Shown: piece after piece, positions 27,952 to 35,653 of the stretch
Layout of the letters: every line of letters starts with the position of its first letter
How positions within the stretch are numbered: position 1 is the first letter of the stretch
Source: Candidatus Methanoflorens stordalenmirensis
GTDB taxonomy: Archaea > Halobacteriota > Bog-38 > Methanoflorentales > Methanoflorentaceae
Direction: 5' to 3'
NCBI GenBank assembly: GCA_003139855.1
Contig: PLGY01000051.1
Location: 29,193 to 64,845, forward strand
DNA length: 35,653 bases
Position numbers and translations under genes: made by a program
Notes under the pieces: model-generated
Databases searched by the model: none
What the model was told of the DNA's origin: nothing
What the model saw: the letters and a program-made list of their open reading frames with translations, nothing else

Positions 27952-28134
27952 ATGATTGAAACGACAATGAAAAAGGTAAATAACGGCTTTTTGCGATATT
28001 TTGGAGATACGAAAAAGGCAAAACTCTTTAATAATGAAATCGATATTCTTCCGCTTTTGATCATCCTGACCGTATTTATCGTACTGCGACCACTTATGCT
28101 GGCAAGGAAGAAGAATGACATCGGTGGCTGTTGA
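27952..28134 (+). CDS. Small membrane protein coupled to modC
   Basis: A 60-residue protein with a basic N-terminal part (about residues 7-27) and one hydrophobic segment, DILPLLIILTVFIVLRPLML, followed by RKK. It probably has a single membrane span. The gene overlaps the start of the ABC ATPase by 20 bases, so translation is likely coupled. I know no family for it. It might be a start remnant of a membrane component of the transporter or an independent small protein. A second in-frame ATG at 27967 is possible. Confidence 0.45.
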   Translation: MIETTMKKVNNGFLRYFGDTKKAKLFNNEIDILPLLIILTVFIVLRPLMLARKKNDIGGC

Positions 28135-29203
28135 GGGGGCATACGCACGCCTCGGCGATTTCAGACTGCAGGATATCAGCGTCAGCGTCGAAAGTGGCGA
28201 ATTCTTTGTCATTCTTGGTCCCAGTGGCGCTGGGAAAACGGTCTTGCTCGATCTGATCGCAGGATTCATTTATCCACGACAGGGGCGGGTGCTCCTCGAC
28301 GGAACAGACATATCTTTTTTACCGACAGAGAGGCGGCATATCGGCTACATGTTCCAAAACTATGCTCTGTTCCCAAACATGAGCGTATACAAGAACATCA
28401 AATTCGGTCTGAGGTATACAAAGCTGGCCGATTACGGACGAAGAATCGAGGATATCATGGAACTGGTGGGGATTGCTAAGCTCAGAGACCGAACCCCTAC
28501 CACGCTGAGCGGTGGAGAGCAGCAACGAGTGGCTCTCGCTCGATCCTTGATTCTTGAGCCGAGCGTTCTCCTTCTCGATGAGCCCCTGAGCGCTCTCGAC
28601 AGTCGGTCACGAGATTTGCTTCGCGAAGAACTGCGAGATGTGATTGACCGGTTTGAGATTACGGCCTTGTTCGTGACCCATGACCAGACAGAAGCCCGGT
28701 TGCTGGCAGACCGGCTCGGGGTCATGTATGATGGCCGGCTCATACAAAGCGGTTCGGTGCATGAAGTCTTTGATAAACCGGAGGATAAACGGGTTGCCTC
28801 GTTTGTTGGGATGGAGAACCTTTTTGAAGGTACCGTTGTTGCTCAGAAAGACGGAATTATTACCGCCGATATAGGCAATGCCACTATTGAAGCCGTCGCA
28901 AACAATGAAAGAGGCGACAGGGTACTCTTAGGAATCAGACCGGAAAACGTTACCGTGATGCTCGAACAAGTTGTCAGCAGCGCGCGGAATACTTTCAACG
29001 GCACAGTCAAGCAGATATTCTACCTTGGACCTATCAACAAGGTGATCATCGACTGTGGGTTTATGCTGGCTGCGTACGTCACGAACATCTCCACAGAAAC
29101 GCTCAGACTCGATCGGGGCAGCGAGGTCAGCGTCGCTTTCAAAGCGACGGGGGTAAACGTGATCGGCGAAGGACAGCGGAGTCGCAAAACTATGCCACGA
29201 TAA
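28115..29203 (+). CDS. modC: Molybdate/tungstate ABC transporter ATP-binding protein
   Basis: The ATPase of a molybdate or tungstate importer (ModC/WtpC type), 362 residues. Walker A is GPSGAGKT near residue 36, the Q-loop is in YMFQNYALFP, the signature is LSGGEQQR, Walker B is VLLLDEPLSALD, and the H-loop is in LFVTHDQTEA. A C-terminal TOBE-type regulatory region begins near residue 235 and includes LLGIRPENVTV. AAGGA lies 6 bases upstream of ATG 28115. The substrate is inferred from this region and from mop, modA and modB nearby; other oxyanion importers share the ATPase architecture. It is 6-7 kb away from modA and modB, which is unusual. Confidence 0.85.
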   Translation: MTSVAVEGAYARLGDFRLQDISVSVESGEFFVILGPSGAGKTVLLDLIAGFIYPRQGRVLLDGTDISFLPTERRHIGYMFQNYALFPNMSVYKNIKFGLRYTKLADYGRRIEDIMELVGIAKLRDRTPTTLSGGEQQRVALARSLILEPSVLLLDEPLSALDSRSRDLLREELRDVIDRFEITALFVTHDQTEARLLADRLGVMYDGRLIQSGSVHEVFDKPEDKRVASFVGMENLFEGTVVAQKDGIITADIGNATIEAVANNERGDRVLLGIRPENVTVMLEQVVSSARNTFNGTVKQIFYLGPINKVIIDCGFMLAAYVTNISTETLRLDRGSEVSVAFKATGVNVIGEGQRSRKTMPR

Positions 29204-30592: not shown

Positions 30593-30616
30593 CGTTATTA
30601 CTAATTAGTCACAACG
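30593..30616 (+). promoter_or_regulatory. ModE-like operator before the mop unit
   Basis: An imperfect 24-base dyad, CGTTAT-N12-ACAACG, flanked by AAG and CTT that lengthen the symmetry. It is nearly the same as the element at 34800-34823. From memory, the Escherichia coli modA operator has the same form (CGTTAT-N12-ATAACG). It ends directly before a TATA box (30618-30625). Confidence 0.6.
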
Positions 30617-30617
30617 C

Positions 30618-30625
30618 TTTTATAA
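30618..30625 (+). promoter_or_regulatory. TATA box for the mop transcription unit
   Basis: TTTTATAA directly follows the ModE-like operator. Initiation is expected near 30645-30650, about 245 bases before mop. Confidence 0.5.
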
Positions 30626-30643
30626 CACAAATCACATGTTAGC

Positions 30644-30880
30644 TTGAGGCTTGGGATCCCCCAAACCTTATCTCCCAGATTTGTTGAAGAAGCAGCGGCA
30701 TATGCACGGCGTGTGCATATGTCATCTTCTTTGCCTAGCGATCGTTGGCTATATGAATTATGCTTTGTATTTGATTATGCATCTTTTCCTGAGCAATTGT
30801 TTTCAAGAGAGGTAACCGCGAAAGAAGATGGCCAAAGCAGTGCAAGGACAAATGATAAGAACCAACAGGTTAAGCTGTAA
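30644..30880 (+). CDS. Possible 78-residue leader protein upstream of mop
   Basis: An AT-richer frame between the operator/TATA region and mop, ending 13 bases before the mop ATG. It begins at a TTG near the predicted transcription start and has an internal ATG at 30719. The translation has a helical part (PRFVEEAAAYARRVHMSS) and an aromatic stretch (DRWLYELCFVFDY), then a polar tail. I know no family. It contains a 9-base inverted repeat. It may be a small gene, a leader peptide or untranslated leader. Confidence 0.35.
   Translation: MRLGIPQTLSPRFVEEAAAYARRVHMSSSLPSDRWLYELCFVFDYASFPEQLFSREVTAKEDGQSSARTNDKNQQVKL
30699..30721. repeat. Perfect inverted repeat in the mop leader
   Basis: CATATGCAC at 30699-30707 and GTGCATATG at 30713-30721 are a perfect 9-base dyad with a 5-base spacer. 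It lies about 50 bases after the predicted transcription start and could be an operator or an RNA hairpin. Confidence 0.5.
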
Positions 30881-30893
30881 AAGGTGATACAAA

Positions 30894-31100
30894 ATGCCTG
30901 TTAGCATACGTAATCAATTTCCCGGTACAGTCAAAGAAGTAAAGTTAGGCACTGTAATGGCCGAGATCATCGTGCAAGTTGGTGGTGGCAATCAGTTCAT
31001 TTCAGTTATCACTAAAGATGCCGCAGAGGACCTCGCACTCAAAGCCGGCGATGAAGTGACTGTGCTGGTGAAATCAACATCGGTCATGATTCAAAAATGA
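30894..31100 (+). CDS. mop: Molybdopterin/molybdate-binding protein (Mop, TOBE domain)
   Basis: A 68-residue molbindin that binds molybdate or tungstate in the cytoplasm as an oligomer. It begins MPVSIRNQFPGTVKEVKLG, which is the classical start (S-x-R-N-x-x-x-G-x-V), and continues with VMAEIIVQVGGG, ISVITKDAAEDLALKAGDEV and VLVKSTSVMI. GGTGAT lies 5 bases before the ATG. A ModE-like operator is found 280 bases upstream, so expression probably follows the molybdate level. Confidence 0.93.
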   Translation: MPVSIRNQFPGTVKEVKLGTVMAEIIVQVGGGNQFISVITKDAAEDLALKAGDEVTVLVKSTSVMIQK

Positions 31101-31268
31101 TATTGAACCCTGAAAAACCGACTTGACCTCAGTGCTAAGGAGAACGAGATACTCCGGATCCCCTAAACGAGATACGAAGCACATTTCGTCTAATCATATG
31201 CTCCAACCGCCACAGCTCACACGAGAACAAGTGGTGCTGATGAATCTCCAGGAGGGACGCTTGTAGCT

Positions 31269-32711
31269 GTGCCGAAGATGTTGATCTACGGCGAATGGGT
31301 TCCTGCGGCAGCAGGCCGTTCCATTAGCGTCTATAACCCGGCTACCGGCGAGGCTGTAGACGAGGTTCCCGCAGCATCGGCTGAAGACGTAGCCACCGCC
31401 ATTGGGGCAGCGCACTCCGCCTTTCCTGCTTGGGCGCACACGCCTGCTGTAAAGCGTGCCGAGCTGCTCGACAGGTCACGCGGTTTATTGCTGTCCCGCC
31501 GGGAAGAAATTGCGCGGTCCATTACAGAAGAATGCGGAAAACCGTTGCGCCAATCACGTTCAGAAATCAACGTTGCAGCTGATTTTATCCGTTGGTACGC
31601 TGAAGAAGGAAGACGCTCGTATGGTGAATGGATTCCCGATCCCCTACCAGATCGACGTTTGCTGACCATTCGACAACCGATAGGGGTCGCTGCAATCATC
31701 ACTCCTTGGAATTTTCCTGCCTATATGGTTGCGAGAACGGCCACCGCAGCCTTGGCCGCAGGCTGCACAGTCGTCATAAAGCCAGCCAGACAAACCCCCC
31801 TCACAGCATTTGCTCTGGCTCGCGCGTTTAACGACGGAGGAATACCTCCAGGTGTCGTGAACGTAGTCACCGGCGACGCAAGTGTCATTGGACAAGCGTT
31901 TCTTGAGGATCAACGCGTGAGAAAGATCTCCTTTGCAGGTTCGCCCGATGTGGGCAAACTACTGATGCGGGGAGCGGCGAATCACGTCAAGCGAGTTTCA
32001 TTAGAGCTCGGAGGTCATGCGGCCTTTATCATTATGAGCGATGCAGCTCTTGATCGAGCTATCGACGGTTTGATGTCGGCCAAATTCCAAAATGCGGGCC
32101 AAACGTGCATAGCTCCTAACCACGTCTATGTACATTCGAGCTTGCTTGAAACCTTCTTAAAGCTGCTGTGTTCCCGCGTCGAGAGACTCAAGGTAGGCAA
32201 CGGTCTTGATCCAGAGACCGACGTAGGTCCGCTTATAAATCGAGATGCACTCGAAAAAGTGAGTAGCCACGTCAACGATGCCATTGATCACGGAGCACGC
32301 CTGCTAACCGGAGGACATCAACTCACTGCGGATGCCCAAGCAGAGGGCAACTTCTATGCACCAACCATATTAGCGGACGTGGCCCCACCAATGCGCATAA
32401 CGTGCGAAGAAACCTTTGGACCGGTCATCGCAGTGACCGCTTTTGAATCCGACGACGAAGCAATCGACCGTGCGAACAGCACGCAATACGGACTGGCAGC
32501 TTATATCTACACACGCGATTTGAGCAAAGCAATACGAATTGCAGAGCGACTCGATGTCGGAATGGTTGGAGTGAACGATACACGAATCGCAGCCGTTGAA
32601 GCTCCCTTTGGAGGGGTAAAACTGAGTGGCATTGGTCGCGAAGGCGGTCGTGAAGGATTGGCAGCTTTCATGGAAACTAAGCAGTTAGCGCTTCGGATTG
32701 GGCCTGCGTAG
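31269..32711 (+). CDS. Aldehyde dehydrogenase, succinate-semialdehyde dehydrogenase-like
   Basis: A 480-residue NAD(P)-dependent aldehyde dehydrogenase. The cofactor and active-site motifs are TPWNFPAYM, VIKPARQTPL, FAGSPDVGKLL, LELGGHAAFI (catalytic Glu) and NAGQTCIAPN (catalytic Cys), then EETFGPV. The whole sequence is most like succinate-semialdehyde dehydrogenases (GabD type), but the substrate cannot be assigned with certainty. The GTG at 31269 has GGAGGG 12 bases upstream; ATG 31278 is the alternative. The family is mostly bacterial in distribution. It is not a molybdenum enzyme, so its place beside mop may be chance. Confidence 0.9.
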   Translation: MPKMLIYGEWVPAAAGRSISVYNPATGEAVDEVPAASAEDVATAIGAAHSAFPAWAHTPAVKRAELLDRSRGLLLSRREEIARSITEECGKPLRQSRSEINVAADFIRWYAEEGRRSYGEWIPDPLPDRRLLTIRQPIGVAAIITPWNFPAYMVARTATAALAAGCTVVIKPARQTPLTAFALARAFNDGGIPPGVVNVVTGDASVIGQAFLEDQRVRKISFAGSPDVGKLLMRGAANHVKRVSLELGGHAAFIIMSDAALDRAIDGLMSAKFQNAGQTCIAPNHVYVHSSLLETFLKLLCSRVERLKVGNGLDPETDVGPLINRDALEKVSSHVNDAIDHGARLLTGGHQLTADAQAEGNFYAPTILADVAPPMRITCEETFGPVIAVTAFESDDEAIDRANSTQYGLAAYIYTRDLSKAIRIAERLDVGMVGVNDTRIAAVEAPFGGVKLSGIGREGGREGLAAFMETKQLALRIGPA

Positions 32712-33005
32712 TGTTAGATTTTTAAACGTGAACAAGTATCTAGAGTCGAAGCCGGCAAGCTAAAGTCGGGCAGACTCTTTGATAGCGATGACGAATCGAG
32801 CACCCTCGGGGACCGCTTGAGGACGGTTGCAGGATCTCTGGATACTTTGGGGTATCTAGTGGGCATTACCGCTTTAACCAGCACCTTTTAGGCCTTTTTT
32901 CCGGAACCGGCCGAAGCCTGCCCTTCTAAAGGGTAAACGCACAGATATTTTGGGCGCAATCATTGCCAAAGATTCGCATAGCTTAAAGGACTGACGCAAC
33001 TCTTT
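32712..33005. other. Gap with a start-less open frame
   Basis: About 290 bases. A plus-strand frame is open from about 32725 to the TAG ending near 32889 with protein-like composition (for example DRLRTVAGSLDTLGYLVGIT), but it has no ATG or GTG start. It may be the 3' remnant of a lost gene. A CTTTTTTCC run lies near 32895. Confidence 0.3.
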
Positions 33006-33302
33006 TTAGATCCCGCCCGGCAACGCGGAGCGTCGTGCTTTGTCTCTTAATTCCTTACACGTCTTTCTAAGCTGCTGCGCTTTTTCATATTCGTTGAGGG
33101 CTATCAATTTCGCTGCCAAGGCTTCTCCCGCTTTGGCCGCAGCCATGTTGTCGCTCTTCTCCTCATTCAAGAAGAGTTCAATCTCTTCATTGCTGAGGGA
33201 CGACTCCTTCTTATTGGTGTCACCGATAAGAAAACGGACTTTAGCCAGCCGCACCTTAGTCAGCCTTAAATCTGCTGAATTTCCATTATAAGGCCTCGTC
33301 AT
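33006..33302 (-). CDS. Phage-like small protein
   Basis: A 98-residue protein. The start of the conserved part, VRFLIGDTNKKESSLSNEEI, then ELFLNEEKSDNMAAAKAGEA and LAAKLIA, resembles small proteins in the head/neck gene clusters of tailed phages (R-x-L-I-G-D-T ... L-S-D-E-E-I ... A-A-A-x-A). The C-terminus is a basic helix (QLRKTCKELRDKARR). It directly follows the decayed reading frame at 33305-33536. It suggests a remnant of a virus or provirus. No ribosome binding site is clear. Confidence 0.55.
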   Translation of the reverse strand: MTRPYNGNSADLRLTKVRLAKVRFLIGDTNKKESSLSNEEIELFLNEEKSDNMAAAKAGEALAAKLIALNEYEKAQQLRKTCKELRDKARRSALPGGI

Positions 33303-33304
33303 GC

Positions 33305-33536
33305 TTATTTGAGCATCTCTTCACTATTTACAGGTCGATAAAATATGCGTTCGAGCATATCAAAAAGCTCATTAAAAGCCCCCATGTCACCACTCGACTC
33401 ATCAATATTACCCGTAGGCCATTTTAGCCAATTTTTTGAGCTTCTGCGTAGAGGAATTTTTATCAGGGTGGTACTTGGTCACGAACCGAACAGGCGCCAG
33501 AAGCGCCAACCAGTCGAACAGCCGGTCTTGACCGCC
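33305..33536 (-). pseudogene. Frameshifted reading frame with an HPD motif
   Basis: On the minus strand one frame gives DRLFDWLALLAPVRFV and then TKYHPDKNSSTQKLKKLAK and MAYG before a stop. Removing one G from a GGG at about 33410 joins it to NIDESSGDMGAFNELFDMLE and RIFYRPVNSEEMLK, which ends 3 bases before the phage-like gene. YHPDKN is the hallmark of J-domain co-chaperones, but the upstream part is cut by stops at about 33537, so this identity is tentative. A TATA box lies upstream. A young frameshift or a sequencing error in the G-run are both possible. Confidence 0.4.
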
Positions 33537-33588
33537 TTAGTGCTGGCCGATCTAGGGTACTTGAAACTTCGTTGTAAACTGTTCTAAT

Positions 33589-33598
33589 CTATATAAGG
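33589..33598 (-). promoter_or_regulatory. TATA box upstream of the phage-like unit
   Basis: On the minus strand CCTTATATAG lies about 55 bases upstream of the decayed frame. Initiation near 33567 could drive both this frame and the phage-like gene. Confidence 0.4.
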
Positions 33599-33742
33599 AA
33601 GGCATCCTTCGTTTTGACTCTGCTCACCTCAATCGTTCGCACTCTAAAAAAGAGGCACCGCACCGCACGCGACGGCGGGTGCGATCAGGACGTATTGCCC
33701 CGAGCTTACTGCGAATGCTTTATTCGGGGCCTTTGCTCCTGG

Positions 33743-34624
33743 TCAGGTAGCAACAGCAGTAGTTGCGCTCTGCGATGCTGCTGATGACACGGCAGCAGTG
33801 GTCGTGTTCTGCGAAGTCGGTGAAATCATGAAACCGTAGCCCGACAAGATTGCTTGTCCTGCAGGCGAGGTGACATAGTTGACGAAATTCTGCGCGTCTT
33901 GAGCGTTCGGCGAAGCGCTTAACACCCCAATGTAGTAGGTAGCAAGGACGTTAACACTGTCAGGAATCGTGATGACCTGCACTTTACTCTGGTATGCAGG
34001 TGGAACTTGGGATTTGTATACGATACCCGCATCAGCCTCTCCAAGCGCGACTTTGACTATGACGTCGTTGACCTGCGTTTCCGTTGACACAACGTTTGAC
34101 ATGACGCTTTTCGCGAAGCCGGAACCGTACGTCGTGTTATTAGACGCTTTTGCGAGCATTTGCAGCGTGTAATTCCCGACGGGGACAGAACTGTTCGCGA
34201 TATCGAGTTTTATTCCTGGCTTTGCGAGATCGGCCAGACTGGTGATGTTTGCGGGGTTCGCTGTCGGAACGATAATGGCTAACTTGTTATATGCGAAAGT
34301 GGTAACGCTTGAGTTGTTCATCAACCCTGCATTCTGCACATTCTGCATTTGCGCTAGATTGGCTGACGCGAAAACGTCTGCGGTGCCCCCCTGAATTAGT
34401 TGGGTTGCCAAAACGTCACTACCAGCAAAGTTAAAGGTGACGTTGACGCCAGTATTATTAGCTGTAAATGCCGCACCTGTCTGATTAAAACAGTCGGTGA
34501 GCGAGTCTGCAGCATCGACCTTGAGCGTCGTGCTCGTAGTCGTAGTCGTGCAGCCACTCATGCTGACGACGAGCACGCTTACCAGTGCGCAAAGCACTAC
34601 GGGTATAATCTTCTTCTTAATCAT
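33743..34624 (-). CDS. modA: Molybdate ABC transporter substrate-binding lipoprotein
   Basis: The extracytoplasmic molybdate-binding protein, 293 residues. The N-terminal signal has a basic start (MIKKKIIP), a hydrophobic core and a lipobox, SMSGC, with the cysteine at residue 25 as lipid anchor. A Thr-rich linker follows. The binding domain includes VDAADSLTDCFNQTGAAF, FNFAGSDVLATQLIQGGTAD and VALGEADAGIVYKSQV, typical of the ModA family. The C-terminus after about residue 265 is a Ser/Thr/Ala tail. GGGAG lies before the ATG. It is transcribed away from modB, and the shared intergenic region has a ModE-like operator. Confidence 0.93.
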   Translation of the reverse strand: MIKKKIIPVVLCALVSVLVVSMSGCTTTTTSTTLKVDAADSLTDCFNQTGAAFTANNTGVNVTFNFAGSDVLATQLIQGGTADVFASANLAQMQNVQNAGLMNNSSVTTFAYNKLAIIVPTANPANITSLADLAKPGIKLDIANSSVPVGNYTLQMLAKASNNTTYGSGFAKSVMSNVVSTETQVNDVIVKVALGEADAGIVYKSQVPPAYQSKVQVITIPDSVNVLATYYIGVLSASPNAQDAQNFVNYVTSPAGQAILSGYGFMISPTSQNTTTAAVSSAASQSATTAVAT

Positions 34625-34689
34625 CTGTTACTCCCTTGTTAGTCATCCGTATCCTCCGTAACTAGCGCTTGCTAGCCAGCTTTTAGTTT

Positions 34690-34763
34690 GTCGGAAATGG
34701 TGTCCATACCATCGCTCCGGCTGTTTTCACGGCCACAAGAGTGGCGCACTAGCCATTTCCGAC
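34690..34763. repeat. Long inverted repeat in the modA leader/promoter
   Basis: GTCGGAAATGG at 34690-34700 and CCATTTCCGAC at 34753-34763 are perfect 11-base arms separated by 52 bases. The inner sequence on the modA-sense strand can form a smaller CAC/GTG hairpin. Depending on the true start site this is either an RNA structure at the modA 5' end or a DNA element. Confidence 0.5.
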
Positions 34764-34772
34764 TTTACCGGA

Positions 34773-34780
34773 CTTATAAT
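34773..34780 (-). promoter_or_regulatory. TATA box for modA
   Basis: On the minus strand ATTATAAG lies 20 bases downstream of the ModE-like operator. Initiation near 34750 gives a leader of about 125 bases. Confidence 0.45.
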
Positions 34781-34799
34781 GCTTTCGCAGATACTTAAA

Positions 34800-34823
34800 C
34801 GTTATGAATAGTTAATCATAACG
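34800..34823. promoter_or_regulatory. ModE-like operator between modA and modB
   Basis: A perfect dyad: CGTTATGA and TCATAACG around an 8-base spacer, that is CGTTAT-N12-ATAACG. It has the same spacing as the ModE site I remember from the E. coli modA promoter, and it shares most of its bases, spacer included, with the element at 30593-30616. Confidence 0.65.
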
Positions 34824-34924: not shown

Positions 34925-34933
34925 TTTTTATAG
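34925..34933 (+). promoter_or_regulatory. TATA box for modB
   Basis: TTTTTATAG lies 102 bases downstream of the ModE-like operator in the modB direction. Initiation near 34955 is expected. Confidence 0.35.
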
Positions 34934-35096: not shown

Positions 35097-35653
35097 ATGC
35101 AGTCTTCAAGAGAGCCCCGCAGTAAGTTTTCATCTTCCCGCACTGCAATGGTCCAATTGACTGGGACGCTTAGTAGAACTATTGCGTTCGTGATCTTTTT
35201 TTTAGCATTTGTGGTAGTCGTAACATTTGTCGGCCTGCCTCTCGTGGCGCTCTTTGCGTACGGGACTCTCTCCGGCTTTCTTAACTCCCTCTCGTCCCCA
35301 GTGCTAGTGCAGGCCCTCCAGCTAAGCTTGGTGACGACACTGACGACCCTATTGCTTGTCATCACATTTGGTACACCGGTGGCATACTTTAACGCGCGCC
35401 ACAGCTACCACGGCAAGAGAATGATAGAGACTCTAATCGATCTTCCAATCGTCTTACCTCCTGCGGTGGCAGGTATCGCGCTCTTACTGGCATTTGGCCG
35501 ACGAGGATTGCTTGGTCAGTACTTCGGCATCCTGGGAATCAACATCGCCTTTACTACAACCGCAGTCATACTAGCGCAAACATTTGTGTCGTCTCCTTTC
35601 TATATCCGGCAAGCAACAACGAGTTTTGAAGACGTCGACCCCGACTACGAACG
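35097..35653 (+). CDS. modB: Molybdate ABC transporter permease (partial, runs off the window)
   Basis: The membrane subunit of the molybdate importer; 185 codons are visible and the gene continues beyond the window. It begins MQSSREPRSKFSSSRTAM and then shows hydrophobic segments, for example IAFVIFFLAFVVVVTFVGLP, LVTTLTTLLLVITFGTPVAY and IVLPPAVAGIALLLAF. LIDLPIVLPPAVAG and the final ATTSFEDVDPDYER are the ModB-type motif and the beginning of the EAA loop that docks on the ATPase. The start is not certain: there is only a weak GAGAGA before ATG 35097. The neighbour modA is divergent. Confidence 0.9.
   Translation, partial: MQSSREPRSKFSSSRTAMVQLTGTLSRTIAFVIFFLAFVVVVTFVGLPLVALFAYGTLSGFLNSLSSPVLVQALQLSLVTTLTTLLLVITFGTPVAYFNARHSYHGKRMIETLIDLPIVLPPAVAGIALLLAFGRRGLLGQYFGILGINIAFTTTAVILAQTFVSSPFYIRQATTSFEDVDPDYE

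Follow-up and report, generated by a model that had tools for sequence, protein, structure and literature searches.

The window, that is, the whole stretch of 35,653 nucleotides from Candidatus Methanoflorens stordalenmirensis that was analysed, carries the following genes and putative operators toward its end.

28115-29203, plus strand: modC-type ABC ATPase with a C-terminal TOBE domain (PF00005, PF03459)
30593-30616, plus strand: putative operator 1, in the mop promoter, CGTTAT-N12-ACAACG (the orthologous sites of G001 and G004 are perfect dyads)
30894-31100, plus strand: mop, a 68-aa molbindin with a single TOBE domain (TIGR00638, E 6.9e-21, above cut-off; PF03459; PDB molbindins)
31269-32711, plus strand: succinate-semialdehyde-dehydrogenase-like aldehyde dehydrogenase, 3' of mop (PF00171; TIGR01780 below cut-off)
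33743-34624, minus strand: modA, molybdate-binding lipoprotein (TIGR01256 above cut-off)
34800-34823, unstranded: putative operator 2, in the modA/modB intergenic region, perfect dyad CGTTAT-N12-ATAACG
35097-35653, plus strand: modB permease, running past the window end (TIGR01581/TIGR02141 just below cut-off)

Beyond the window end, modB is followed by fmdE on the minus strand and by fwdBDC, and mcrA is present in the genome. The pair formed by mop and the succinate-semialdehyde-dehydrogenase-like gene (31269-32711) is kept in G001 and G004; to our knowledge, the latter gene has no known tie to molybdenum.

The sequence bears out the two dyads and their flanks as described by the first-pass annotation, and profile matches confirm the neighbours that it had named, with mop after site 1 and divergent modA and modB around site 2. 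The first site reads CGTTATTACTAATTAGTCACAACG and the second CGTTATGAATAGTTAATCATAACG; they are identical at 19 of 24 positions, and each has TACTTAA(G/A) on its 5' side and CGCTTT on its 3' side. Operator 2 is a perfect 6-12-6 dyad, and operator 1 has a single arm mismatch, ACAACG where G001 and G004 read ATAACG, so the CGNTAT-N12-ATANCG inverted repeat is exact at the modA/modB site and has one mismatch at the mop site. Judging from sequence, we consider it very probable that the single ModE of this genome reads the two dyads as operators belonging to a molybdate regulon, as such sites occur in the promoters of genes for molybdate transport and molybdoenzymes and are conserved in relatives.

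How far the sequence pattern itself can be trusted depends on its form. The bare pattern (CGTTAT-N12-AYAACG, at most 2 mismatches, with the reversed pattern as control) gave 3 matches in the window versus 0.88 expected, a number reached by 4 of 100 shuffles, and 56 matches in the 2.06-Mb genome versus 77 for the control. Because it is genome-wide no commoner than its reversed control, the loose pattern is no proof and was discarded as evidence. The full 28-base E. coli consensus, which matches 13/20 and 11/20 specified positions at the window sites, a chance score, was also discarded. The 34-base flank-extended pattern (at most 3 mismatches) had 12 matches in the seven genus genomes, all of them in mod, mop, fdhA or frhA promoters, and its reversed control had 0 matches in the same genomes at the same threshold. 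The suggested scan of the genome and its relatives with the pattern therefore failed for the loose form (56 vs 77) and succeeded for the extended one (12 vs 0). A 44-column matrix was then trained on congener sites only, leaving out the window's own genome, and it ranked the two window sites first and second with 48.5 and 42.7 bits, while the next window position scored 0.5 bits, and the top score among 200 dinucleotide-shuffled windows was 14.1. The extended site is thus highly specific, unlike the bare pattern. The notion that the dyads reflect chance or promoter-sequence likeness with no regulator involved can point to the unenriched loose pattern and the chance-level score of the E. coli consensus, but it is contradicted by the outcome of this matrix, and the specificity of the extended site, its recurrence before molybdenum genes and its conservation in congeners, the paralogous modA2 included, make it a negligible prospect.

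Across the seven genus genomes, the exact CGNTAT-N12-ATANCG repeat has 20 matches, versus 7 for the reversed control. Mo/W genes adjoin 14 of the 20 (mod, mop, fwdB, fdhA/frhA and, in G003, tup), and the remaining 6, which are not at Mo/W genes, are at about the background level. The conservation before mod and mop genes that had been predicted for relatives was found in congeners, and it extends to sites before fwd and fdh genes. In the organism's own genome, surveyed by pattern searches, six sites have at most one mismatch, of which those on C8, C53 and C65 have no neighbouring molybdenum gene and were counted as background. One site lies before fdhA (C16:9621-9644; FdhA scores above the TIGR01591 cut-off) and is conserved in the same-species genome G006. 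Just past the window, the interval between fmdE and fwdB holds a diverged site (C62:65872-65895) that is conserved in G001, G003 and G004; the same interval of G003 contains two exact sites, and G002 has one exact site before fwdB. The proposal that two dyads define a molybdate regulon is therefore supported as to the regulon, but not as to its size, since fdhA and fwdB also carry sites. The molybdate regulon most likely also covers formylmethanofuran and formate dehydrogenases.

The genome G003 offers several further observations. A tupBCA-type tungstate transporter is preceded, at a distance of about 380 bp, by a site of the form CGATAT-N12-ATATCG (L040:14161-14184). Two operators (L041:6114 and 6330) lie between divergent fdhA and the F420-hydrogenase gene frhA, each abutting CTTTTATA toward its gene, which suggests molybdenum-linked control of a NiFe hydrogenase. 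In the same genome mop is missing from this place, but the mop operator has been kept upstream of modA together with part of the mop leader (L040:7734-8000), so that modA of G003 has two operators.

The first-pass annotation had also expected that the regulator is encoded outside the window, and this was confirmed, as the sole ModE-domain protein of the genome is encoded at C47:35288-35623, between moeA and moaD. This 111-aa protein matches TIGR00637 with E 9.3e-23 and 80 bits, versus a cut-off of 98.5, below which most archaeal ModE homologues in the phylum also score. It aligns to PDB 2ijl and to E. coli ModE (1o7l/1b9m), with a winged HTH and the GGKxGGGAxLT motif. HTH_1 is its only Pfam domain, with no C-terminal TOBE in the 111 residues; TOBE domains were found only in Mop and the ModC-type ATPase. 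Because TOBE domains are absent, we class the regulator as an HTH-only ModE. A conserved half-site, ATCGTTAT, lies at the start codon of moeA, in the stretch between this gene and modE (L008:4246, L046:1392, L047:1316), and is possibly a weak autoregulatory site.

At the level of the phylum, 38 of 247 genomes contain the exact CGTTAT-N12-ATAACG, 37 of these 38 carry a ModE homologue, and such a homologue is present in 155 of the 247 (Fisher p 1e-7 for site and ModE, in a test that ignores shared ancestry). The reversed control pattern has no significant association with the presence of ModE in the 247 genomes (p 0.22). Relatedness inflates the Fisher p value, and gene linkage is independent of it: modE lies within about 3.1 kb of an exact site in 12 phylum genomes. 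The gene adjoining the exact phylum sites is mostly that of a ModA/WtpA binding protein, and in G157 it is FmdE. It is quite improbable that the sites serve another Mo/W-responsive regulator while ModE acts elsewhere. That ModE lacks a TOBE domain and lies on a different contig, and that close linkage between modE and the sites is seen only in other families, would fit such a regulator; the joint occurrence of site and ModE in 37 of 38 genomes argues against it, as does a core geometry that fits the E. coli-type ModE consensus (PMC545781, PMC2700814). Binding of ModE to the sites, and repression from them, are what we infer from the sequence evidence. As a separate observation, the loci L066 and L069 (family f2, genus g27) have, between a DUF34/NIF3 gene and a ModD/NadC-like gene, an exact site of the ModE type (CGTTATGTTCATTCATACATAACG, in either orientation), which ties DUF34/NIF3 to a molybdate regulon. 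This arrangement recurs in further g27 genomes.

The promoter boxes near the operators were assigned from conservation, AT-rich boxes being present on both flanks of the sites.

30617-30626, plus strand: CTTTTATAAC, presumed TATA element of mop, directly adjoining operator 1 (invariant in three genomes; the same box follows the G003 fdhA and frhA sites)
34790-34799, minus strand: TTTAAGTATC, presumed TATA element of modA, directly adjoining operator 2 on its modA side (the upstream regions of five modA genes share an invariant YTTAAGTAT)
34925-34932, plus strand: TTTTTATA, candidate TATA box of modB, lying downstream of operator 2 at a distance of about 100 bp (invariant in three genomes)

Site 1 had been placed directly before the mop TATA box, and CTTTTATAAC, invariant in three genomes, indeed adjoins it. 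The placement of site 2 between modA and modB also holds and can be refined, as this site abuts the modA promoter box (YTTAAGTATC right after the operator, invariant in five sequences except for the last base) and modB has a conserved candidate TATA box of its own about 100 bp further on. The same order of operator and then TATA-like box is found at fdhA and frhA, and at fwdB with a few extra bases between them. The order is opposite in nine family-f4 loci (L053-L061), which run from TATA box to operator to the start codon of a binding-protein (WtpA/ModA) gene, so the operator has shifted relative to the TATA box between clades; in f4, just downstream of the TATA box, it occupies the classical repressor position.

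The two CGTTAT arms begin 18 bp apart, under two helical turns, and would both be contacted by a ModE dimer. At modA, the bound operator may block the loading of TBP and TFB under ample molybdate and thus switch uptake off; this is the likeliest mode of action there, because the operator lies against the TATA box and overlaps the BRE position. We give ModE repression at modA through a blocked BRE/TATA roughly even chances. Through the sites at mop, fwdB and fdhA, the signal that acts on uptake would also reach storage and the Mo/W enzymes. Possible, though a weaker proposition, is that ModE activates instead of repressing: positioned immediately 5' of the BRE/TATA, it would recruit TBP/TFB in the presence of molybdate at the genes for molybdenum enzymes and mop. 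This view concerns the sign of regulation only and leaves the identity of the sites unaffected. In its favour, the operator lies immediately 5' of a TATA-like box at every assigned promoter in the genus (it is downstream in f4), and storage and molybdenum-enzyme genes would be poor targets for molybdate repression. However, modA shares this geometry, and molybdate activation would be counterproductive there; moreover, the operator arm covers the BRE.

Molybdate may reach the HTH-only ModE through another TOBE protein such as Mop. We speculate that the sensor may be split, with the HTH-only ModE on the operators and the stand-alone Mop supplying the molybdate-binding domain in trans, an arrangement that we regard as rather unlikely. 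If true, it would form a feedback loop, as Mop itself would be made under a ModE operator, and this loop would also set the expression of fwd (the first methanogenesis enzyme) and fdh (formate use) in peat methanogens.

Between operator 1 and mop, the long leader contains one further element.

30699-30721, plus strand: CATATGCAC-N5-GTGCATATG, a further conserved dyad, located in the long leader of mop (perfect, with invariant arms and a variable loop)

In an alignment of three genomes, the mop upstream region, with its leader of about 250 bases, reaches a mean column identity of 88%. The dyad occurs once per genome, only in the mop leaders of G000, G001 and G004, and was accordingly discarded as a second multi-copy operator; it may form a hairpin in the leader (-16.7 kcal/mol) or serve as a binding site. 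A conserved leader ORF before mop was discarded as well, since the frames break between genomes, and we regard the leader as non-coding because reading frames are not preserved. An Rfam riboswitch search of the window, mop leader included, gave no match at the gathering threshold.

Control of formylmethanofuran dehydrogenase by molybdenum has a precedent among methanogens in the Methanothermobacter fmdECB operon, which is under molybdate control with the DNA-binding protein Tfx; Tfx belongs to another HTH family than ModE and binds downstream of the promoter. Studholme and Pau reportedly predicted ModE elements in archaea in 2003, and the present lineage is not known to be among those covered. 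The sites described here resemble these elements in the DNA element, the domain of life and the target genes, whereas in the present lineage the targets also include mop, fwdB, fdhA/frhA and tup, and the conserved flanks (TTAAG/CTTTA) are longer. As archaeal ModE elements were already predicted at that time, the regulon is of a known kind. The modABC genes of Methanosarcinales have likewise been described as under ModE control, with reference to Studholme and Pau 2003 (PMC9765008).

The E. coli-type ModE consensus, ATCGNTATATA-N6-TATATANCGAT, contains CGNTAT-N12-ATANCG (PMC545781, PMC2700814). Accordingly, the claimed resemblance to the bacterial ModE operator holds for the CGNTAT/ATANCG arms and their 12-base spacing, but the full E. 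coli consensus fails to single out the sites. The E. coli ModE/modABC system shares these arms and this spacing, a homologous winged HTH, and molybdate transport and molybdoenzymes as targets. It differs in the inner ATATA/TATAT half-sites of its operator, absent from the window sites, in the two molybdate-binding TOBE domains of its ModE, which the archaeal regulator lacks, and in its promoters, the window sites lying at archaeal BRE/TATA promoters. Because only arms and spacing are kept, we consider the window sites an archaeal form, not an E. coli-type one. Desulfovibrio also has a single-domain, HTH-only ModE, whose molybdenum sensing is unexplained (PMC545781); it resembles the present regulator in a DNA-binding domain without TOBE and a regulon at mod genes, but its sites are CGGTCACG-N14-CGTGACCG, whereas the window sites keep E. 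coli-like CGTTAT arms (PMC545781).

Less expected features are the reach of the regulon to fwd, fdh and frh, the combination of an HTH-only regulator with a separate, ModE-operated Mop, and the order of operator and TATA box. These sites form a clean set with which to address molybdate sensing by an HTH-only ModE, a question that Desulfovibrio had already raised. For this uncultured peatland methanogen lineage, the analysis provides a concrete and testable molybdenum regulon, in which trace-metal supply would be tied to formylmethanofuran and formate dehydrogenases, both of which catalyse steps of methane formation.
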